Origin: a virus
Strand: one strand, 5' to 3'
Virus record (IMG/VR): IMGVR_UViG_3300024262_000202
Coordinates: 1-26,945 of that record
DNA length: 26,945 nt
Shown one piece after another: positions 6,629 to 23,202 of the stretch (position 1 is the stretch's first letter; each line of letters starts with the position of its first letter). The translations under genes were made by a program, and so were the position numbers. The notes beneath the pieces were generated by a model that had not been told where the DNA came from, searched no databases, and was given only the letters and a program-made list of their open reading frames with translations.

Positions 6629-7858
6629 TTAGTCCTTGTTTACTGTTTCATAAACAGTTCTTATAATATGTGTAGTTACAATCTGTGTTGGAATAGCCAT
6701 CAATGCAACGTTCAATAAATCGACTGCTACCATTGATGTATTAAGACTACCATCTGTTTCTTTTAATGCGTCAGGTATATCCTCTGTAAATATTAAATTA
6801 GCTAAATTTCTAAATGAAGTAAAAATCTCTGTGAACTCAACAGAAAGATATTCTCCAACTACTTTTATAGCACTCCAAAGTCTGCTCATAAGACCACCTT
6901 CCGATTCTCCTGAGTCTATTATTGCAGCTATTGTTGGAAACTCATCGGCAAATTTAGTTTTTAAATTCTCCATCATTGGCCCAAAATCCATAGCACCAAA
7001 TAAACCTTCAAGTGCTACAATCATTGGAGCTAAGATAGGACCATATTTACTATATGCTTGAACTATACTCATAAACCCGTCCCATACTCCATCTAGACCT
7101 GTCTTTAATCCAGATATTGCTAGTTTCCAATCTTCATCACCTAACGCTCCAATTAAAGTCCAAAACGCATTCCAAGCATTAGTAAAACCTATTGTTAGTT
7201 TTTCAGCTATCCATGCTGAAACTTTGTTAAAGGTCTCAACAAAAAAGGTCCAAGCATCGTCAGCAAAAACTACTAATGAATCAAGAAGGTCAACAACATT
7301 TATATTCATGAAACCTAAAAATCCACCAACAATTCCTTTTAGTCCTGAGAATATTTGTCCAAGCCCTTCTTTAACTTGATCAAAATCTAAACTAAAAATA
7401 CCATTAGCAACATTAGTTGCTCCTTCATTAATTTGTCCTAATCCGGTTTGAGCAGTATCGCTATCAAGAAACTCACGCCACTTCTTATAAATAGGAATCG
7501 CAAATCTTAACATTGCAATTGCAAACGGTTTGATAAATAATCCAATAGCATCACCAATAGGTCTCAACAAAACTTGCATACTCTTGGTTAAAATATTTAT
7601 AGAACTAGCAAGAAGAGGACTTGATTGTACTAAAAAACCAAATCCTTTTTTAATAGTACTAAACATCTTTTCGAGAACTAATACACCACCTGCTAAAGCT
7701 GCACCAATATCTCCTAATATTGGAAGGTCTAATCCTTGTAACGCACCTCTAAGTCCTTCTGCAAATCCTTGTCCACTAGATTTTCCACCAAGACCTACAG
7801 CAGCAGATTTCATACTACTAACATCTAATACTAATTTTGCTTTTATTGGCTCTACCAT
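6629..7858 (-). CDS. Tail tape measure protein (short)
   Basis: A protein of 409 residues with several long hydrophobic stretches (around PILGDIGAALAGGVLVLEKMF, IKPFAIAMLRFAIPIY, LKGIVGGFLGFMNI and YGPILAPMIVALEGL) between helical polar segments, the usual pattern of tape measure proteins. It directly follows the frameshifted tail chaperone, the defining genomic position. At the commonly cited 0.15 nm per residue this implies a tail of roughly 60 nm, short for a siphovirus. No lytic transglycosylase or peptidase domain is visible. The start ATG is 5 nt after the GT stop, with SD AGGTAA. Function is well supported by context. Confidence 0.85.
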   Translation of the reverse strand: MVEPIKAKLVLDVSSMKSAAVGLGGKSSGQGFAEGLRGALQGLDLPILGDIGAALAGGVLVLEKMFSTIKKGFGFLVQSSPLLASSINILTKSMQVLLRPIGDAIGLFIKPFAIAMLRFAIPIYKKWREFLDSDTAQTGLGQINEGATNVANGIFSLDFDQVKEGLGQIFSGLKGIVGGFLGFMNINVVDLLDSLVVFADDAWTFFVETFNKVSAWIAEKLTIGFTNAWNAFWTLIGALGDEDWKLAISGLKTGLDGVWDGFMSIVQAYSKYGPILAPMIVALEGLFGAMDFGPMMENLKTKFADEFPTIAAIIDSGESEGGLMSRLWSAIKVVGEYLSVEFTEIFTSFRNLANLIFTEDIPDALKETDGSLNTSMVAVDLLNVALMAIPTQIVTTHIIRTVYETVNKD

Positions 7859-7863
7859 TTTAG

Positions 7864-8091
7864 TTACCTAGTTCTGCTTTTTGCGCGCTGTTGATTTTCT
7901 CTTTTTTGTTGTTCTTGCATCTGTTTCTTTTGTTGATAATTATTAATCATCAATATGAAATCAATATCTTCTTGTCTCATATTATCAACTTGTTCTGGTG
8001 TAATCCCCTTTTCAACGAAATAAAAATAAATAAACTTTTTTCTTAACCGCTGTTCGCTGGGGAGTCTATCGGAGTAGACAGCGGTTCGGAT
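7864..8091 (-). CDS. T extension of tail assembly chaperone gpGT (reached by -1 frameshift)
   Basis: A frame lying -1 to the chaperone gene is open from just after a TGA near 8098 to TAA at 7864-7866. After a slip at GGGAAAA it would add 75 residues (IRTAVYSDRL... then FVEKGITPEQVDNMRQ, EDIDFILMINNYQQKK and a basic tail), making a 169-residue G-T fusion. No good start codon with an SD opens this frame, so translation needs the frameshift. Tail chaperone pairs of the lambda G/GT type precede the tape measure in most long-tailed phages, and the helical, charged T domain here fits. The stop lies 5 nt before the tape measure ATG. Confidence 0.8.
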   Translation of the reverse strand: MRTAVYSDRLPSEQRLRKKFIYFYFVEKGITPEQVDNMRQEDIDFILMINNYQQKKQMQEQQKRENQQRAKSRTR

Positions 8092-8372
8092 TTTCCCTCA
8101 TCGTCGCCTTTAATATTAACAATGTTTTTTAATTCATTAAACAGTTTAATATAATCGTCAAGTTCTAATTCTCCTATTGCTGTTTTTACTGGAACCATGC
8201 CCCATGGATGTTTTCCTATACAAAACGGAAGAAGAATATTAAACAACTTACTCATTTTAATTTCTCCATTGCTAACTTCAGCTTCTTCCATTGCATGTGC
8301 AAAATGTTTAGCTTTAGGTTTCTTGATAAAAACCTCTCCCATACTTAATTGAATTTTTATTTCATCGCTCAT
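8043..8372 (-). CDS. Tail assembly chaperone, G-type product
   Basis: A protein of 109 residues in the unshifted frame, ending just past a hairpin. N-terminal beta strands (IKIQLSMGEVFIKKPKAKHF) and a helical core (DDYIKLFNELKNIVNI) match small tail-chaperone proteins encoded between tail tube and tape measure. Codons 93-94 (GGA AAA) lie in the slippery heptamer G GGA AAA, so ribosomes either finish this product or shift -1 into the T extension. SD AGGGTGA precedes the ATG. In known systems both products bind the tape measure during tail assembly and are absent from the virion. Confidence 0.8.
   Translation of the reverse strand: MSDEIKIQLSMGEVFIKKPKAKHFAHAMEEAEVSNGEIKMSKLFNILLPFCIGKHPWGMVPVKTAIGELELDDYIKLFNELKNIVNIKGDDEGKSEPLSTPIDSPANSG
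8047..8097 (-). promoter_or_regulatory. -1 programmed ribosomal frameshift signal
   Basis: The canonical slippery heptamer G GGA AAA lies at 8097-8091 in the chaperone reading frame. A 6-nt spacer (8090-8085) follows, then a hairpin whose outer arms are perfect 7-mers: CCGCTGT at 8084-8078 and ACAGCGG at 8053-8047. A nested GTCTA/TAGAC pair within it closes a 6-nt loop if the outer stem is shortened to CCGCT/AGCGG. Heptamer, spacer length and stem fit known -1 signals, and the new frame is open from this point. Confidence 0.8.
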
Positions 8373-8384
8373 ATTTATTCACCC

Positions 8385-9410
8385 TTATGCAATTGCATAC
8401 CATCTAATTGGAACATTTACTGCTCCGTCTGCTAATCCACTCTCAGCTGTTCCAGTTACTGTGATTTCAATAACACCACCATCTAAAGTAATAGGTTCAG
8501 ACCAACTATCAAAATGACCGTTTGCTAAATCGATATTTATTACTCTATCTGTACTAGCTCCTGTTCCTTCGTTAATATCTAAACTAATAGTATTACTTGC
8601 ATTTGAATAACCAGCACTAGGAGCAGTATCAGCTGCAGCTCCGAAGAATAGTTCTCTAGCTTCAATACCGCCTAATGTACTAGCTGTTGAATCTCTTTTC
8701 TTTCTGAGAGTCATAGTAAAATCATATCTACGCAAACCTGTTGACGGCTGTGTTATTAATCGACTTCCTAATTCTCTATAAGTTTGAATATTATTACTAA
8801 TTGTAACATTAAAAGCTGTAACCTGAACTGTATCAGTTCCAACAGTACAAGTTGCATCGTGAAACATTAACGGTCTAGCTGTTCCTGCACTAACACTTTG
8901 TAAAGATGTACTTGTTACAACTGTTTGACCTACCCAATCTATAGAAGCTGTAATAATTTCTCCTTGTGTCGCACTAATTGTTAAACTATTAATAACAACA
9001 CCACTGATCGTGATTTCATTATCTGTGGTGTCACCTTCACTCCCTACCTCTAAAGTTAAACTTGGAATGTTAGCTGCATCAAAACCAATATTTTCTGCTT
9101 CTTCAATTTGATAAGGGTCTGCGATAACACCTGTCCCTGTTAATGTTCCTATTGCATATTGCAATGCTGTCGGATCTGTAATATTAAATTCTGTTGTACC
9201 ATTAACATCGAATGGTCCTAAGAAAGTACCTGTTGCATTTCGGCCATCACCAAGACCTTGTGTTCTAAATGAGTTGTTACTCATGTTTAAATTAAAACTT
9301 GTTATCTGTCCAATAAATGCTGTAGTAGCAGGAACTACAGGTGTTCCGTATGTTGCTTCTTCTCCATAAATTATATACGTATCAAATCCCTTAAAATATT
9401 CAACTGTCAT
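8385..9410 (-). CDS. Tail tube (major tail) protein
   Basis: A protein of 341 residues, beta-rich. The N-terminus YIIYGEEATYGTPVVPATT followed by IGQITSFNLNMSNNSFRTQGLGDGRNA is typical of major tail tube proteins, as is the C-terminal GGVIEITVTGTAES region. It lies between tail terminator and tail chaperone, the expected place. No sheath gene is present, so the tail is probably non-contractile. The ATG overlaps the preceding stop (TAATG), with SD AGGAGAG. The length exceeds small siphovirus tube proteins, suggesting an extra surface domain. Confidence 0.8.
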   Translation of the reverse strand: MTVEYFKGFDTYIIYGEEATYGTPVVPATTAFIGQITSFNLNMSNNSFRTQGLGDGRNATGTFLGPFDVNGTTEFNITDPTALQYAIGTLTGTGVIADPYQIEEAENIGFDAANIPSLTLEVGSEGDTTDNEITISGVVINSLTISATQGEIITASIDWVGQTVVTSTSLQSVSAGTARPLMFHDATCTVGTDTVQVTAFNVTISNNIQTYRELGSRLITQPSTGLRRYDFTMTLRKKRDSTASTLGGIEARELFFGAAADTAPSAGYSNASNTISLDINEGTGASTDRVINIDLANGHFDSWSEPITLDGGVIEITVTGTAESGLADGAVNVPIRWYAIA

Positions 9411-9539: not shown

Positions 9540-10259
9540 TTAATATTCCTCTCCTGCGTTAAATCCTTTAATATGATATTCTAACATATATCTAAAAATT
9601 CCCAATTCTTCATCAAAAGGTAAAGGGTTAGACGAAATAAGTTCAGGATAAAATAATCCAGTCATTGTTGTATCATTTCTCCACGAACCTCTAAATTGTT
9701 CAATAACATCTCTTGCAATATATTGGACAGCTTTCTTACCTTCTAATCCATAAGTATAAGTTGAAGTTATTGCTTGACCTGTATATGAAGAAATATCAGC
9801 AGTAGCGAAGTTTAAGTTTCCTGTACTCTTACTCCATTGAACTGTCCCTGCTGAAGGTGATGTAAAGTCTGCATCTGTATTAACTGCTGTAACAGTTCCA
9901 AACGGTGTACCGTCATGACTTATCGATGTTACGGTACCAGGAACATAATCAAAAGATAATCCAGTTGCGATGTTACCAACAGCCTCGTCAGTAACTGTTA
10001 AAGTATAAACTTGATCTTTCTTTGCTACAATATCAACTTGAAAAGTAATATCACTTAAAGTTGTATCGTCGTTGATACCCATTCGTTCACCGTTCTCAGT
10101 AAGAATAGTAATTCCCATTCTAGGAAAACTTGTATTACCTAAACTAGCAACACGAGGGAAGTCTGGATAAATCCATTGACCGGATCTAGAAGCATTAATA
10201 TCAGTAACTGTATTACGAAGAAAGTTACAAATTATTCTATCTGGTTCTAGTCTTGTCAT
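9540..10259 (-). CDS. Tail terminator-like protein with inserted beta domain
   Basis: A protein of 239 residues. N-terminal (MTRLEPDRIICNFLRNTV..., FPRMGITILTENGERMGI, TLSDITFQVDIVAKKD) and C-terminal (KKAVQYIARDVIEQFRGSW...FRYMLEYHIKGF) parts together match a tail terminator of about 150 residues. Between them, about residues 85-170, sits a beta module (YTLTVTDEAVGNI...TVQWSKSTGNLNF...TSTYTYG) also found in the adaptor and hub. The order gp10-like, terminator, tube supports the call. The ATG has only a weak SD (AGATGG), and a TATA-like element lies 64 nt upstream. Confidence 0.7.
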   Translation of the reverse strand: MTRLEPDRIICNFLRNTVTDINASRSGQWIYPDFPRVASLGNTSFPRMGITILTENGERMGINDDTTLSDITFQVDIVAKKDQVYTLTVTDEAVGNIATGLSFDYVPGTVTSISHDGTPFGTVTAVNTDADFTSPSAGTVQWSKSTGNLNFATADISSYTGQAITSTYTYGLEGKKAVQYIARDVIEQFRGSWRNDTTMTGLFYPELISSNPLPFDEELGIFRYMLEYHIKGFNAGEEY

Positions 10260-10322
10260 GGTGCCATCTTAGCGTTAAAATTTAATAAGTCCTCTTGGAC
10301 AATTACATTAATAGTTAAATGG

Positions 10323-10336
10323 TATTTAAATTATAG
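10323..10336 (-). promoter_or_regulatory. Archaeal-type TATA-like promoter element P3
   Basis: On the minus strand the sequence CTATAATTTAAATACC follows directly after the stop of the gp10-like gene. TTTAAATA occupies 10330-10323. A start site about 25 nt downstream would fall near 10300, giving the tail-terminator gene a leader of about 40 nt. The same element, with at most minor changes, occurs at 20.88 and 23.19 kb. Confidence 0.5.
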
Positions 10337-11191: not shown

Positions 11192-12502
11192 TTATATGAA
11201 TTCTACATTAATCTTACGACCAATCATATCAAATATTTCATCCATTCGTTTTCTATACTGTGACAATACTTCACGAATGTTTACATACTGCTCACCGATA
11301 ATAACTTCTTTACTACCTAATCTGTAATGAGTTGCATCATCGTATGATCCACCTGATGTACTAATGAATGCTTTAATCGCAGCAATCAATACACTAAGCT
11401 CAGTGATATAACTAGGAGTTGTAGTTTGACCGTATGAATAAGTAACACGAATATTGTTTCGTCCATTCATTACAGATCTATTAAGAACATACATTATTCC
11501 AGAACTTCTGAAATCTAGTTCATTCAATTCTACAACTTCATAAATCATATCTTTTGCTGCCATCACTGACATTACTGGAGGAGTAGAGTACGTTCCCCCA
11601 AACGTAACCCTAATCCAGTAGAGGCTTTCACTATTGACCGAAGTCTGCGTCCATCCGTAAGGAAACGACCACCTAAATAATCCACTCGCTGTGAAATCTG
11701 AACTTCCTGAATCAACTTCGGTTGTATTTAATGAAGCCCATGTTGTCCCATTATAATATTCCCAAGTCAAACTTGGTGAACCCACTCCTAAAGTTGCAAG
11801 AACAGTTCGTAGTCCTAAAAATCTACTAGCCATTCCGATGTACATAATATCTCCCGAAGACGGAGTTGTTTGCCATATACTAAAAGTACCCTCAACGGTT
11901 GAGTTTGCTTCGTCGGTTATAGCGGTGAATGTTGATTGATCCCAGTTGAACACTTTATTGAACGAAGTTGTTTGTGTTACAAAATATACTTCACTCACAT
12001 TAACAACTGGTGAATGTCTTAATAAAATCTGATCTGGTCTATCCCAATCTGGTGCGTAAGGTGCGTCTGTGGTAGGGTACATTGAAGTTCGTTCTCCACT
12101 ATAATATTCTGTGACTTCTGTTGCAGTGTCCCATTTTCTCCCAGACCTTAAATCAATCTCGTCATCAGCAATATCTATTAAATCTGAAATTACAGTGTCA
12201 CTGAACTGGTCAGTGTGCCAATAAGTTGCATAAAGAATATCTGTTCCAAGAGCAGTCACACCAGCAGATTCTAATAATATTCGTCCACTCTCTTTATCTA
12301 AAGTGTAATGTGTGGTTTCTGTTAAAGCAGTCATTGAATTAGAACCACTAGCAGCGTGTTGTAAAGTGTAACTTGAAGAGATAACATTACTATGATCTAA
12401 ATCGAAATCGGTCTCTGCATTATCTCCAGTACCTACGTTCTCGTCTACTATTCTAAGTCCTAATCCGCTTCGTTCTGCGAATTGTAAAGTTGTACTATAC
12501 AT
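11192..12502 (-). CDS. Head-tail connector (adaptor) with two inserted beta domains
   Basis: A protein of 436 residues if ATG at 12502 is used; SD GGCGGTGA lies just upstream, and a TTG at 12517 is less likely. The adaptor core appears split: helices DTVISDLIDIADDEIDLRSGRKW near residue 100 and ITELSVLIAAIKAFI plus MDEIFDMIGRKI near the C-terminus. Inserts are an N-terminal beta module (VDENVGTG...HYTLDKESGRILL) and a central sandwich of about 110 residues (DIMYIGMASRFLGL...LTWEYYNGTTW...LYWIRVTF) known from other phage structural proteins. Typical adaptors have about 100 residues, so this one is greatly enlarged, presumably by surface decorations on the neck. It overlaps the HNH gene by 8 nt. 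Confidence 0.65.
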   Translation of the reverse strand: MYSTTLQFAERSGLGLRIVDENVGTGDNAETDFDLDHSNVISSSYTLQHAASGSNSMTALTETTHYTLDKESGRILLESAGVTALGTDILYATYWHTDQFSDTVISDLIDIADDEIDLRSGRKWDTATEVTEYYSGERTSMYPTTDAPYAPDWDRPDQILLRHSPVVNVSEVYFVTQTTSFNKVFNWDQSTFTAITDEANSTVEGTFSIWQTTPSSGDIMYIGMASRFLGLRTVLATLGVGSPSLTWEYYNGTTWASLNTTEVDSGSSDFTASGLFRWSFPYGWTQTSVNSESLYWIRVTFGGTYSTPPVMSVMAAKDMIYEVVELNELDFRSSGIMYVLNRSVMNGRNNIRVTYSYGQTTTPSYITELSVLIAAIKAFISTSGGSYDDATHYRLGSKEVIIGEQYVNIREVLSQYRKRMDEIFDMIGRKINVEFI

Positions 12503-12929
12503 TTTTTTCACCGCCAATTATGTTTGTTCGTTTTGACCACCCACCGTCAGAAGGTAAAAATCTTCCTAAATTATGTTCTTTTGCATGACAGCTTCTACAT
12601 ATCATTTGCAAATTATCAAGCTTATTGTTTTTTCTATTCTCATCCATATGATGAATTACTATGTGTGATTCTGATGAACATTTTTCACAAGCAATTATAT
12701 CTACTTCCGCTAGGAACTTTACTCTATAATTCCCTGCCCCATTCGTAGTGTTAGTATCACTTATTTTGTTTTTTGTTTCTAAGGAGTGTGTTCTTCCTTT
12801 CATCCCAGATGATTTCCCAAAATTATATGGTTTCCAATTTGTTTTCCAACAAAGCCTTGAACAATATTTACTGCTAGACCTAGGGTGTTCTTTATATTCC
12901 TTACACCCATTACATTGTTTGTATGCCAT
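12495..12929 (-). CDS. HNH homing endonuclease with NUMOD3 motif
   Basis: A protein of 144 residues, starting at ATG 12929 with SD GGAG. Domains in order: an N-terminal zinc-finger-like part (CNGCKEY...KYCSRLCW), a NUMOD3-type DNA-binding motif (GKSSGMKGRTHSLETKNKISD), and an HNH nuclease with CEKC, HHMDENRKNNKLDNLQ and CRSCHAKEH carrying the metal and catalytic histidines. This is a free-standing homing endonuclease, a selfish gene that cuts homologous DNA lacking it. It has been inserted between the coiled-coil membrane protein and the adaptor, leaving 4 nt upstream and an 8-nt overlap downstream, so the flanking genes seem intact. Confidence 0.9.
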   Translation of the reverse strand: MAYKQCNGCKEYKEHPRSSSKYCSRLCWKTNWKPYNFGKSSGMKGRTHSLETKNKISDTNTTNGAGNYRVKFLAEVDIIACEKCSSESHIVIHHMDENRKNNKLDNLQMICRSCHAKEHNLGRFLPSDGGWSKRTNIIGGEKNV

Positions 12930-12933
12930 GTTA

Positions 12934-13161
12934 TTATCTCCATAATCTTGTTGCAATGTATGTAACAACACCACCAAAAGTTGTTGCCACAAATCCCACT
13001 AATGCTATCATTCCTTTTGCACTAATTCTGAACTCCGTATTTTTTGTAACTTGCCCATTCAATTTTGCTAAATGATCATTCATATGGTCTAATGTCTTTT
13101 TGATATAATCTACATCTTTCTCTAAAAGTTCTTTGATGTAAACTATTTCTTTTTGTGGCAT
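12934..13161 (-). CDS. Small coiled-coil membrane protein (XhlA/holin-like)
   Basis: A protein of 75 residues. Residues 1-45 form an amphipathic coiled coil (IKELLEKDVDYIKKTLDHMNDHLAKLNGQV) and residues 49-70 a single membrane segment (KGMIALVGFVATTFGGVVTYIATRLW). This is the layout of XhlA-like small proteins often annotated with lysis genes, although the position within the head module is unusual for lysis. The ATG overlaps the LamG gene stop (TAATG). Function as holin, anti-holin or membrane anchor is inference. Confidence 0.6.
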   Translation of the reverse strand: MPQKEIVYIKELLEKDVDYIKKTLDHMNDHLAKLNGQVTKNTEFRISAKGMIALVGFVATTFGGVVTYIATRLWR

Positions 13162-13862
13162 TATATATTCGTCCTCGCTACAGATATTTCACTTCTTGTT
13201 TTACCTGGGACAAAAGTTGAACTCCATGCAGTACCTGCAGTAATAGTTCCATTATACCCGTTACCAGATTGGTCGGTTAAAGTTGTACCAGAACCGTCTG
13301 AAAAGTCACAATGAATTTCTAAATTAGTTGAAGGAATAACACCATCATAATAAAGGTCGGCCACTTGAGATGCACTCAAATCTGTGCTCCATACACAACT
13401 CCTTGATATATTACCATCTAAATATACTCCATTATTATTACTGTACCCTAAGGTTAATTGGTTAGTTACAACACCAATATCAGTTAATGTGAAAGCAGTT
13501 GAAACTACTAATGCACCATCCAAATATATCTTTACAGTTGATTGGTCAAATGTTAATACCACTTCATGCCAAACATTCAAAGTTGGTGCTGGGCCAGTAA
13601 TAGTCTGGATAGTATTGTCAGCCTGTCTTAATTGAACCAATAAAAGACCGTTTGTATTAAAAACTAACCTATAACCGCCAGTCCCCAACTTGTCCCATAA
13701 AGATGCTGCGTTAGTATATTGGTTTATGTTAAAAGTGCATGACAATGAAAATGAATCTGTTTCTGTAAAATTGAGTATGTCGCCAAATAGAACCCGTTGT
13801 GAACTGGCTTGAACTAGGTTAAGTGAACTATTAAATTTTTGTATTGATTTTCTTCTTGCCAT
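13161..13862 (-). CDS. LamG/concanavalin-like domain protein
   Basis: A protein of 233 residues if the TAATG-overlapping ATG at 13862 is used (SD GAGG); an upstream ATG at 13883 is possible. Nearly the whole protein is one LamG jelly-roll: SFSLSCTFNI, WDKLGTGGYRLVFNTNGLLLVQL, NVWHEVVLTFDQSTVKIYLDGALV, LTLGY and GNISRSCVWSTDLSASQVADLYYDG, ending in the DQSGNGYNGTI segment that closes such domains in phages. It resembles both domains of the preceding protein. Glycan or protein binding on the virion surface is inferred. Confidence 0.75.
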   Translation of the reverse strand: MARRKSIQKFNSSLNLVQASSQRVLFGDILNFTETDSFSLSCTFNINQYTNAASLWDKLGTGGYRLVFNTNGLLLVQLRQADNTIQTITGPAPTLNVWHEVVLTFDQSTVKIYLDGALVVSTAFTLTDIGVVTNQLTLGYSNNNGVYLDGNISRSCVWSTDLSASQVADLYYDGVIPSTNLEIHCDFSDGSGTTLTDQSGNGYNGTITAGTAWSSTFVPGKTRSEISVARTNI

Positions 13863-15268
13863 TATGGTGTCCTCGTTGACCAAGCAGCAGCACCTTCTAA
13901 GGCCCCATTATTCCCTAAACCCGAAGAATCTGTTACTGTTGCTCCAGCTCCGTCTGTCATTTTTGTGTCAAGTCCTAAAGTTCCACCACCGGTTGTTTGA
14001 ATACCATCATAATAATCATTATCAACATCAGCTTGAACCCATGCGTACCCTTTATTAATATAAAATTGTGTGAGTAATCCATCCCAATTATTACCACCAT
14101 CTGCTGCCCATGAACCTAAAGTTACATTGGCACTAGTGTCACCGATAACAGTAGAAGCAGTCCCAGTCTGAATAATTGATCCATTAAGATACATTGTGAA
14201 ATCATTACCTGACCTAGTCACAACTAACCTGTACCACTTATTGTCTAACAATTCGTTCCCTGGTGTTGTGATTGGTGTTGCTGATGTCCCACCAGTAGTA
14301 GAAACTTTGAACAAGATTGTATTGTCTGAACCTTGATAAAAACAAGTGAACTCTCGATTACTCGCATTAGTTCGTTTCCCAAAAATCCCATGAGAGTTTG
14401 CTGTTTGCATTAAATTGTGTCCTTTCAACCATAATGCAATAGAGAAGTCCCCAGTTAAAACTAGTGAACTATCATTACCAAAATTAACTTCGTCTGCTGC
14501 GTTAGTCGTAGTTTGGATACTGTGTGAAAAATTTTGTGGGGTTCTTCGTTTCTTCTTTGATGTTATAGTTGAATACTCTGCGTTTCCTACCAAAGTTCCA
14601 TCATACCCGTTACCTGTTACATCTTCAACAGTACCAGCAATAAGTCCAGTCTCGTTAGGTTTCAATTCTATTAATTTTGTAACGCCAGCAGGAATTTGAT
14701 CAGTTTTTATATAAGTTGCAATTTCGTCAGAAGTTAAAGCGGTATCAAGAATAGTTACATTAGACCATGTAGTAGAAGATTTTGTTCCCAATGTATCACC
14801 GAAGCCGCCAATATGAGCATTACCTGCGTTCATTACTAAATTAATCCCTGGAACTACTTCTGTAATATCTGAATTAAGAAACACACCAAATCTGGCCCCC
14901 TGTTTATAGACCATTCCTACAACTACCCATTGATTGTTATACACATAATTTCCATCAACACTAGTAGCAATTGTTTCTGTTGCACTACCACTACAAATTC
15001 TTGCGTGAAGTGCATTAGTTGTTTGATTCCCAAAAACTTCAAAATTACGGTCAAGAGGAGTAGTGCCAAAATCTTTGTACGCAATTAACCTTCCTGCTGT
15101 AGATAACGCAACAAACGATACATTCATTCTACATCGGATTAAAACAGTAAACTCTGACTCTACTGCTGTGTTAAAAGCACTGTCAGTAGTAAAGGTTAAT
15201 CCGTCCCCTATAGAACCAGGGTCATATATTGAATATGAATAGTCCAGTATATCGTTTCTTAATACCAT
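13862..15268 (-). CDS. Two-domain LamG structural protein
   Basis: A protein of 468 residues with two LamG-type jelly-rolls in tandem. Domain 1 spans roughly residues 10-235 (SEFTVLIRCRMNVSF ... TILDTALTSDEIATYI). Domain 2 spans about 245-468 (GDFSIALWLKGHNL, NKWYRLVVTRSGNDFTMYLNGSII, LLTQFYINKGYAWVQADVDNDYYDG). Each ends with a D-x-S/T-G-x-G-x-x-G type closing segment. A basic hinge, SKKKRRTPQ, joins them. With the next gene this makes three related domains in a row. The start overlaps the preceding stop (TAATG). It is probably an exposed capsid or neck adhesin. Confidence 0.75.
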   Translation of the reverse strand: MVLRNDILDYSYSIYDPGSIGDGLTFTTDSAFNTAVESEFTVLIRCRMNVSFVALSTAGRLIAYKDFGTTPLDRNFEVFGNQTTNALHARICSGSATETIATSVDGNYVYNNQWVVVGMVYKQGARFGVFLNSDITEVVPGINLVMNAGNAHIGGFGDTLGTKSSTTWSNVTILDTALTSDEIATYIKTDQIPAGVTKLIELKPNETGLIAGTVEDVTGNGYDGTLVGNAEYSTITSKKKRRTPQNFSHSIQTTTNAADEVNFGNDSSLVLTGDFSIALWLKGHNLMQTANSHGIFGKRTNASNREFTCFYQGSDNTILFKVSTTGGTSATPITTPGNELLDNKWYRLVVTRSGNDFTMYLNGSIIQTGTASTVIGDTSANVTLGSWAADGGNNWDGLLTQFYINKGYAWVQADVDNDYYDGIQTTGGGTLGLDTKMTDGAGATVTDSSGLGNNGALEGAAAWSTRTP

Positions 15269-17680: not shown

Positions 17681-17776
17681 TGTAATCCTCCTTGATTAAT
17701 TATTTGTGACCGCATATCAGAGGAGACTGCTTGTCATGAGTGTGAAATAAAAAAATAAAAAAAAGTAATATCAAAT
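17681..17776 (-). terminator. T-rich terminator-like tract in a 96-bp gap
   Basis: After the stop at 17777, the minus strand runs TTTTTTTTATTTTTTT at 17764-17749 without a preceding GC-rich hairpin, as archaeal intrinsic terminators do. The same 16-mer is found at 18603-18588. The rest of the gap holds a short leader with SD AAGGAGGA before the next gene. No ORF is seen. Confidence 0.5.
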
Positions 17777-18559
17777 TTATAATGATACTACTCTGTAAGT
17801 TACATACAAGTTTGCTGTACCAGCTGCGGTTCCAGGGTCTGTAAATGCACCAGTCGCGTTAGTAATAACCAAAGCTGTTGCCGCGGATAATTCTAATTCT
17901 GTTTCTGCTGTTTTACCTACTCTGAAAATTTTGTCTGCACTAGCTCCAAATGAATTAGTCTTAGTTAAAGTACCACTAACTGCAGAACCACCACTATAAT
18001 CAATAGTAATATCTCCACCGCCAGTGTAAGCTGCAGTATCATAAGTAAATGCGATTGTTGCACTAACAAATTCAATTGCACTTCCTGCTGGAGGTGCTGC
18101 TACTACTTCTACTGGTGCTCCATTCATTGCAAGAATGTTTGCTGCACTAATTACAACTCTTTCAGTCTTGATTACTACTGGGTCCATCATAGACGAATCT
18201 ACTGCATTAGCTGCAATTGATACTGCACCACTTGAAGCTAAAGTTACATCTCCACTAACTGCTACACTTACAACATCAGTACCATCTCCTACTAAGATTT
18301 GTCCACTAGATTTTGCATCTAATACTGTAGGTACATTACCTGCAGTTTGACCTGAAATAACACTACCTCTTGTTAAAGCTGCTAATTTACTGAATGCGAT
18401 TGCTGCTGCTGCTGCTACTTTTACGTTGGTCACTGCATCAGTTCCTAATTCTGTATTACTAATTGAACCTGCTGCTAGAGTAGGGTCAACTTGTACATCC
18501 ATTGTTGCGTCAATCGTTACTGCTCGTCCCGATTGCATCCAAGGTTGTCCGTATGCCAT
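17777..18559 (-). CDS. Virion surface/head fibre-like protein
   Basis: A protein of 260 residues. Residues 1-130 contain fibre-repeat patterns (GSISNTELGTDAVTNVKVAAAAAIAFSKL, SGQILVGDGTDVVSVAVSGDVTLASSGAVSIA) typical of fibre shafts. Residues 135-260 form a beta sandwich (TERVVISAANILAMNGAPVEVVAAPPAGSAIEFVSATIAF ... LYVTYRVV) that resembles a widespread phage head-fibre or decoration C-terminal domain. SD AGGAGG is well placed. It is flanked on both sides by identical T8-A-T7 tracts, suggesting a separately controlled transcript. Assignment as a head fibre rests on composition and position close to the capsid gene. Confidence 0.6.
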   Translation of the reverse strand: MAYGQPWMQSGRAVTIDATMDVQVDPTLAAGSISNTELGTDAVTNVKVAAAAAIAFSKLAALTRGSVISGQTAGNVPTVLDAKSSGQILVGDGTDVVSVAVSGDVTLASSGAVSIAANAVDSSMMDPVVIKTERVVISAANILAMNGAPVEVVAAPPAGSAIEFVSATIAFTYDTAAYTGGGDITIDYSGGSAVSGTLTKTNSFGASADKIFRVGKTAETELELSAATALVITNATGAFTDPGTAAGTANLYVTYRVVSL

Positions 18560-18587
18560 ATTATTTTCCTCCTAAATTATAATAATT

Positions 18588-18603
18588 AAAAAAATAAAAA
18601 AAA
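18588..18603 (-). terminator. T-rich terminator-like tract upstream of the head-fibre gene
   Basis: Minus-strand TTTTTTTTATTTTTTT at 18603-18588, 10 nt after the stop of the 91-residue gene and preceded by CTTTA. No hairpin precedes it. It is identical to the 16-mer at 17764-17749. It would end or reduce transcripts of the capsid protein unit, if archaeal rules apply. Confidence 0.5.
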
Positions 18604-18613
18604 TAAAGAAACT

Positions 18614-18889
18614 CTAAAGTCTCCCTAATACATGAATAGTTCTTGCTTCATTATCAGTTGAACCTGGGATAGCTAAACCACTTGCTGCGGTAATAACTAA
18701 TACTGGTTCCCAATCATCGGTTGAACCATAACAAGTTGCTGAAACTATTTTTGTAATTGCACAAATTGAACTTATATCAATAGTGTCTGTGTCATCTGCA
18801 GTAGCTGGGGTAACGATTTTATATACGTTAAATCCAGGTAAAGCTGCGTCAACGGTAACTGTACAATCTGCTATATCTATTGCTGCCAT
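18614..18889 (-). CDS. Small beta-rich protein, possible capsid decoration protein
   Basis: A protein of 91 residues, beta-rich, with IDIADCTVTVDAALPGFNVYKIVTPATADDTDTID at the start and EARTIHVLGRL at the end. It directly follows the major capsid gene, where decoration (cement) proteins are usually encoded, and its size fits. No family signature was recognised. The nearest SD (GGAGGA) is 14 nt from the ATG, a long spacing. A T-rich tract follows the stop. Confidence 0.55.
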   Translation of the reverse strand: MAAIDIADCTVTVDAALPGFNVYKIVTPATADDTDTIDISSICAITKIVSATCYGSTDDWEPVLVITAASGLAIPGSTDNEARTIHVLGRL

Positions 18890-19973: not shown

Positions 19974-20321
19974 TTATCCATATATGGATTTTAGCATACC
20001 TTGTATTGTAGGTACTTTCTCTTCAACTTGTGGTTCACTAGTTTCAACTGTTGCTTTCATAATTGATTTTTTAACATCAACTGTTTCTACTTCTTTTGTA
20101 ACTTCTAAACTTACAAGTTTTTCTTTTAGCTCTGCTACTTCTTTTTTAAGGTCTGCAATAACTGATTTCTCAGCTCCAACTTCCTCAGCAACTTCGCCCT
20201 CAGCTTCAATTACTTCCTGTGCTACTTCTGCAACAACCACTTCTTCGGCTACTACTTCTTCAGCAACGGGAGCAACTTCTTCCTGAACTTGAACTTCTTC
20301 CTTTTTGATTTCTTCTGTCAT
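19974..20321 (-). CDS. Nested in-frame scaffold product (internal start)
   Basis: Within the protease gene, ATG at 20321 (residue 178) is preceded by SD GGAGGAG at 20334-20328 with a 6-nt spacer, at the exact border between protease and scaffold-like tail (EEST-MTEEIKK). The product would have 115 residues, all of the coiled-coil part. This is the arrangement of lambda C/Nu3, in which a nested start makes free scaffold in excess over protease. Not proven, but the SD is one of the best in the window and is otherwise unneeded. Confidence 0.65.
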   Translation of the reverse strand: MTEEIKKEEVQVQEEVAPVAEEVVAEEVVVAEVAQEVIEAEGEVAEEVGAEKSVIADLKKEVAELKEKLVSLEVTKEVETVDVKKSIMKATVETSEPQVEEKVPTIQGMLKSIYG

Positions 20322-20852
20322 TGTTGACTCCTCCAAATCTTTATTTAGGTCAAACGCCTTAGCGACATGACCAAAAGATGCGTTTCTATTAGATTGAATA
20401 GGAACCCAAGTTGCTTCAACTAGTTCAGCCTTGGTCCATACACGATGTTGTGTTCCGTCCACATCTTTGTTTAAAGATTCAGTTGGAATTGCACCGATAG
20501 AAATACCCACGTTCAATCCATTTTCTAGGGCTTCCTCCACCTGCTTTTGAATTTGGGCCGCAAGTGGATTAGCCTCTTTAGAAAAGAAAAATGGTTCTGC
20601 CATTAATGCAGTGTGTCCGCCTTTATTGACGGTTCTTAGATTTTTCCAACCACCAACAAGATTTTCCATCTTATTAACGTGATTAGCTAATGCTGGTAAT
20701 ACTTGATTATTCTTCGCCCAATCTTGGATAAGTTCTTTACTCATGAACTCGTCATCTCGGTCAATAGAAGTATCAGATAGTATTCCAACAAACTTTCCAG
20801 AACTTGATTTTGTTACTGGCATCCATAGTTTTGTAATAGTTTGTTCTGTCAT
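19974..20852 (-). CDS. Prohead protease fused to scaffold-like domain
   Basis: A protein of 292 residues. Residues 1-165 form an HK97 gp4-like (U35/S78) prohead protease: candidate catalytic His58 in ALANHVNKMENLVGGW, Ser118 in NVGISIGAIP, and the family's closing segment LVEATWVPIQSNRNASFGHV. Residues 178-292 are low-complexity, Glu/Val/Ala-rich, with a coiled coil (IADLKKEVAELKEKLVSLEV), as in scaffolding proteins. The protease is expected to mature the procapsid and then degrade the scaffold part. An in-frame ATG (residue 178) with its own SD could make the scaffold alone. SD AAGGAG lies 8 nt before the start. A TATA-like element lies 24 nt upstream of the ATG. Confidence 0.85.
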   Translation of the reverse strand: MTEQTITKLWMPVTKSSSGKFVGILSDTSIDRDDEFMSKELIQDWAKNNQVLPALANHVNKMENLVGGWKNLRTVNKGGHTALMAEPFFFSKEANPLAAQIQKQVEEALENGLNVGISIGAIPTESLNKDVDGTQHRVWTKAELVEATWVPIQSNRNASFGHVAKAFDLNKDLEESTMTEEIKKEEVQVQEEVAPVAEEVVAEEVVVAEVAQEVIEAEGEVAEEVGAEKSVIADLKKEVAELKEKLVSLEVTKEVETVDVKKSIMKATVETSEPQVEEKVPTIQGMLKSIYG

Positions 20853-20876
20853 CTTTATATCTCCTTAATTAATTTG

Positions 20877-20890
20877 TATTTAAATTATGG
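20877..20890 (-). promoter_or_regulatory. Archaeal-type TATA-like promoter element P2
   Basis: Minus-strand ACCATAATTTAAATAC follows the portal stop by at most 1 nt; TTTAAATA lies at 20884-20877. A start about 26 nt downstream would fall near the protease ATG (20852), which would remove the SD at 20864-20861 and give an almost leaderless mRNA. The element matches the copies at 10.33 and 23.19 kb. Confidence 0.5.
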
Positions 20891-23072: not shown

Positions 23073-23202
23073 GATAGTAAGTGAGAAAGGGGTTCGTATT
23101 TAACACAAGGGGTTATATGAGGTGGTGGTTGATGGACTAAATAGAGAAAACCCCTTTCTCATAGCTATTATGGAAGAATGGTATTTAAATTATGGTTTGA
23201 AA
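23073..23202 (-). promoter_or_regulatory. Portal leader: TATA-like element P1 and 13-bp inverted repeat
   Basis: This 130-bp gap between terminase and portal holds no ORF. Minus-strand ACCATAATTTAAATACC carries TTTAAATA at 23189-23182, with a start site expected near 23160. A perfect inverted repeat follows: TGAGAAAGGGGTT at 23082-23094 and AACCCCTTTCTCA at 23149-23161 on the plus strand. A second direct AAGGGGTT lies at 23107-23114, 20 bp from the first. The transcript would begin about where one arm starts, and the other arm ends 9 nt before the portal ATG. Confidence 0.55.

Follow-up and report, generated by a model that had tools for sequence, protein, structure and literature searches.

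A virus contig of 26,945 nt (IMGVR_UViG_3300024262_000202; the whole stretch analysed here, hereafter the window) carries two overlapping ORFs between its tail tube and tape measure genes. The locus raises the question of whether the second ORF is reached from the first by a -1 ribosomal frameshift and, if so, whether this would take place on archaeal ribosomes. In phage lambda, the overlapping ORFs G and T precede the tape measure gene, with T in the -1 frame, and a low-level -1 slip produces a G-T fusion; G-T frameshifting is widely conserved among long-tailed phages (PMC5009743). The gene order in the window is tail tube - G - T - tape measure, all on the minus strand. The putative zero-frame tail assembly chaperone G (8043-8372, 109 aa) runs from an ATG at 8372 to a TAA at 8045-8043 and is preceded by a Shine-Dalgarno-like motif, GGGTGA (8379-8384), 6 nt 5' of the ATG, while the T segment (7864-8097) lies in the -1 frame. 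The flanking genes encode a tail tube protein of 341 aa (8385-9410; Pfam Phage_tube_2, E 2.3e-17), the presumed partner of T, and a tape measure protein of 409 aa (6629-7858; PHROG tail length tape measure protein, E 3.5e-6), the presumed client of G and GT.

The overlap contains the slippery heptamer G GGA AAA (8097-8091), in which GGA and AAA are zero-frame codons of G. The -1 frame is bounded by a TGA immediately before the heptamer (8100-8098) and a TAA after it (7866-7864), so that a fusion protein would consist of 94 + 75 = 169 aa, with 75 residues coming after the slip site, and would end 5 nt before the tape measure ATG (7858). Counted from the G stop, the first ATG of the T frame is at +65 and no GTG or TTG occurs before +92; the earliest possible T starts thus fall after most of the conserved core of T. 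The position and frame of the heptamer, the extent of the -1 frame and the lack of a separate T start had all been described in a first-pass annotation, and each was recovered when the coordinates were re-read base for base.

The same annotation had described a hairpin with 7-bp outer arms behind a 6-nt spacer. The hairpin is present, but two further A-U pairs extend it to 9 bp and reduce the spacer to 4 nt. Its 5' arm, AACCGCUGU (8086-8078), pairs with the 3' arm, ACAGCGGUU (8053-8045), the last base of which is the first base of the G stop codon. Stems of at least 9 bp beginning no more than 10 nt downstream arose in 95 of 3000 shuffles (about 3%). The minimum-energy fold of the 121-nt context prefers another structure, and the 9-bp stem is therefore best regarded as a local structure, which would arise in the RNA directly in front of the ribosome. 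In the window and in one close relative, L002, the loop UCCCC (8063-8059) could form a pseudoknot with GGGGA (8008-8004); this pairing was rejected as a case of compensatory change, since in L017 the two segments pair only when offset by one base.

Taken alone, the heptamer of the window is only moderately surprising: codon shuffles of G yield an in-phase X XXY YYZ site (Y = A/T) in an equally long overlap in 18% of cases, and the weight of the argument therefore falls on relatives. In the other genes of the window, GGGAAAN was not found in phase in any of 7,845 codons. An alignment of related viruses had been suggested by the first-pass annotation, and in the two closest, L002 (IMGVR 3300027861_000261) and L017 (3300025141_000899), with G proteins about 70% identical, the heptamer (identical and in phase), the stem and the T frame are all kept, which removes the doubt that the signal of the window arose by chance. 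Across the three sequences, one stem pair alternates between A-U and G-C, two others differ by G-U pairing, and all 27 pair cells are paired, as against 22-56% in slid registers. Covariation measured against column shuffling is not separable from chance with three sequences (176/500 shuffles). Among the three close relatives, substitutions in the T frame beyond the overlap number 47, 37 and 89 at codon positions 1, 2 and 3, and this excess at the third position indicates that T is selected as a protein in the -1 frame. The signal is thus real, conserved and of a kind ordinary for long-tailed viruses. One additional match to the DNA pattern of heptamer plus stem (L106) belonged to an unrelated phage and was discarded as a chance match.

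More distant relatives were gathered by single-protein searches and then by tail-tube (A1) and portal (A3) alignments. Eight lineages with T in the -1 frame were picked by tail-tube homology regardless of heptamers, the close trio being counted once, and seven of them carry an in-phase heptamer in the overlap where 1.3 would be expected (P about 8e-6). Besides G GGA AAA, these are A AAA AAA (L005, L019, L093, L100), A AAA AAC (L006) and A AAA AAG (L020). Two further relatives with heptamers, L091 and L103, came to attention through a scan for heptamers and were therefore left out of the probability. The eighth lineage, L094, has T in -1 and no heptamer (GCA AAG AAG GGG GAA TAG); it is kept as an exception, where the ribosome might slip on a single codon at A AAG or G GGG. 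Two kinds of site come with a stem that clearly exceeds chance, G GGA AAA in the close trio (folding z from -2.4 to -3.1) and A AAA AAC in L006. The L006 stem has 12 bp, starts 3 nt after the heptamer, is unrelated to that of the window and was matched in 3 of 1000 shuffles; none was found at the remaining sites tested.

These relatives bear on the reading in which T is a separate gene with its own start, reached by coupling or reinitiation, the heptamer being incidental. Such an arrangement has a precedent in the annotation of HHTV-2, an archaeal virus in which genes 46-49 follow the order of the window (tail tube - 47 - 48 - tape measure, the last of 419 aa as compared with 409 aa) and in which 47 and 48 are listed as independent genes with 9 nt between them. 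However, no early T-frame ATG is present in any -1 member found: in the window and all its -1 relatives the first one occurs at least 35 nt, and mostly at least 59 nt, past the G stop, at a point within or beyond the conserved core, and in-phase heptamers recur in the overlap. Separate initiation of T in the window is very unlikely on these grounds, even with the in-frame ATG codons of some +1 relatives described below on its side.

Stuttering of RNA polymerase instead of slipping of the ribosome might also join the two frames, and this is conceivable on the long A runs of L005 (8 A), L019 (9 A) and L093 (11 A). By contrast, the window, L002 and L017 contain just GGGAAAA, with a conserved stem at the position of a ribosomal stimulator, and the site of L006 is AAAAAAC with its 12-bp stem, so that transcriptional slippage is an extremely improbable account of the module.

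The assignment of the pair to the tail assembly chaperones draws on gene order and predicted structure. PHROG and Pfam searches with G of the window and PHROG searches with T returned no informative family, and tblastn of T of the window and G of L006 against phage records returned nothing. An AlphaFold model of G built from 17 sequences (pLDDT 83) has as its top PDB match the tail assembly chaperone of HK97 (2OB9; probability 0.97, E 0.05, TM 0.48), a match that is weak by its E value and has 16% sequence identity, followed by YqbN (3KLU); its BFVD matches include tail assembly chaperones of Bacillus phages, Mu FS-gp41, HHTV-2 and ChaoS9. The model thus gives moderate support for a tail assembly chaperone fold of G. 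The model of T is helical (pLDDT 86) with weak structure matches only. Together with the conservation of T as a protein and the recurrent in-phase heptamers of relatives, gene order and the fold of G support the G/GT identity originally proposed for the two ORFs.

The locus is therefore very probably the G/GT module of a long-tailed, presumably archaeal virus, in which a minority -1 slip on G GGA AAA would yield the 169-residue GT. We infer that most ribosomes would read G to its own stop, whereas a minority would be delayed by the 9-bp stem while the tRNAs for GGA and AAA occupy G GGA AAA, slip back by one base to GGG AAA and read on through T. What G and T would bind is taken over from lambda (PMC5009743): by this analogy, the tape measure protein might be coated by G, and tail tube subunits might be recruited by the T portion of GT, in which case the slip would set the ratio of G to GT.

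The -1 frame is not universal in the wider group. In five lineages (L095, L096, L097, L098/L099 and L101) T lies in the +1 frame relative to G; the regions concerned are L095 2594-3143, L096 1148-1691 and L098 2573-3068 and, on the minus strand, L097 955-1468 and L101 882-1401. A heptamer is found in none of these five as against seven of the eight -1 lineages (Fisher P 0.005), and inspection by eye revealed no slip site that the +1 relatives share. The G stop is TGA in four of the five, and in four of the five an in-frame ATG precedes it, so that a +1 slip, a -2 slip and separate initiation of T are all conceivable in these viruses. Relatives lacking the heptamer while T keeps its own start had been named beforehand as a case that would speak against frameshifting. 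L094 has no heptamer, but it has no early ATG either, and the part of that case that was encountered, heptamer-less sites mostly with an ATG before the G stop, is confined to the +1 relatives. T proteins can be aligned between -1 and +1 members, many of them around a motif like GITPEQVDxM.

The most interesting by-product of the comparison is that both -1 and +1 (or -2) arrangements of T occur in a single group of viruses. On the tail-tube tree the frame label takes three changes, although weak branches would permit one. A broader reading, to which we give somewhat less than even credence, is that a group of non-halophilic archaeal viruses has kept the G-T fusion while repeatedly rebuilding the decoding device, some members using various -1 heptamers, accompanied by unrelated stems or by none, and others a +1 (or -2) route; archaeal ribosomes might then serve both directions.

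The host of the virus is likely to be an archaeon, as the first-pass annotation had also supposed, and the support is indirect, coming from matches to haloarchaeal viruses, the replication proteins of relatives and TATA motifs. HHTV-2 is the sole named match of the major capsid protein, and the best E values among the matches listed belong to HRTV-28 for the portal and to Halogranum tailed virus 1 for the terminase (TerL); all of these matches are remote (about 24-27% identity). The large replication proteins of two relatives (L012 13095-15773 and L013 10653-13022, the latter on the minus strand) match ORFs of archaeal viruses only, namely Sulfolobus-type spindle-shaped viruses and, for one relative, HRTV-27 too; the N-terminal part of one of these proteins weakly matches a primase-polymerase. 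A DNA polymerase of a relative has its best E value, among the matches listed, to HRTV-25.

A TATA-like motif, which we take to resemble archaeal TATA boxes, occurs on the minus strand of the window as CTATAATTTAAATAC (10322-10336) upstream of gene 9540-10259 and as CCATAATTTAAATAC upstream of gene 19974-20852 (20876-20890) and of the portal gene (23181-23195). The motif YATAATTTAAATAC was found three times exactly, each time in a spacer 5' of a gene and on its coding strand. In relatives, a similar motif (ATTTAAATAC or ATTTATATAC) stands before orthologous genes (L027 798, L028 2987, L025 4845, L026 15912). Among nine stretches, 10 of 24 matches are intergenic and codirectional with the following gene, as against about 1.2 expected, this being evidence at the level of the consensus. 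Matches to sigma-70 promoters were at chance level only.

If the host were bacterial, the frameshift could be just as real and yet uninformative about archaeal ribosomes. The terminase and the tail tube also match bacterial phages, the tail tube having a better match in a Rossellomorea phage than in Haloarcula viruses. Alignments of the tail tube and the portal against cellular genome contigs found no relative, and among 22 records there was no PCNA match and no MCM match above the cut-off; the MCM test could not discriminate, because the MCM model also scores in every bacterial control. On the other side stand the best listed matches of the major capsid protein, the portal and the terminase to haloarchaeal viruses, the archaeal virus-specific matches of the replication proteins and the archaeal-style TATA motifs in orthologous spacers, and a bacterial host is accordingly considered unlikely.

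With an archaeal host the locus joins a list of proposed cases. G-GT sites of the -1 type have been predicted for HVTV-1, HCTV-1/2/5 and Hardycor1, and HSTV-2 is reported to have a likely +1 counterpart of the G-T frameshift (PMC5009743, PMC8211752, PMC7911831; for HSTV-2, PMC5009743). In archaea, -1 frameshifting is described as unequivocal only for a Sulfolobus alpha-fucosidase gene (PMC8037382), and the viral cases are predictions. The window shares with the archaeal tailed viruses HVTV-1, HCTV-1/2/5 and Hardycor1 a predicted -1 slip in the tail chaperone genes; unlike theirs, its group is AT-rich (about 36% GC) and is known here from metagenome virus contigs alone. HSTV-2 resembles the five +1 relatives, whereas the window itself is -1. 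As in lambda, the ORFs of the window overlap ahead of the tape measure gene and T is in the -1 frame. The lambda heptamer is G GGA AAG; the window differs in having G GGA AAA with a 9-bp stem 4 nt downstream, and its G and T belong to no recognisable sequence family.

The locus had been put forward, on condition of an archaeal host, as a useful example of -1 frameshifting on archaeal ribosomes. This stands in so far as relatives keep the signal and an archaeal host is likely, which makes it a good new example of a known frameshift; it would not be the first G-GT case of the -1 type on archaeal ribosomes, since such sites had already been proposed for the haloarchaeal viruses named above. For specialists, the interest lies in how the sites have been rebuilt across the group and in the presence of two frame directions. 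The group offers a natural series comprising four heptamer types, two unrelated stems, a case with no heptamer and the +1 set, and placing this series in one reporter could reveal the tRNAs and structures to which archaeal ribosomes are responsive.

Several other features were observed in these genomes. In L090 (6281-6753) and HHTV-2 (L110 5550-5570), a G-like gene ends with GAA AAC TGA and the next frame is -1, with no X XXY YYZ heptamer. T-rich runs with no obvious hairpins follow genes at 18560-18616 and 17681-17780 of the window, as in archaeal terminators. The window also contains an HNH endonuclease gene amid its structural genes (12495-12992), and two neighbouring proteins encoded at 13161-15268 carry Laminin_G_3 lectin-like domains and are candidates for receptor binding or capsid decoration. 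One relative, G006, encodes QueC, a radical SAM protein, GTP cyclohydrolase I and a QueF-like protein (L025 14714-17061, minus strand), a gene set that suggests 7-deazaguanine modification of its DNA.
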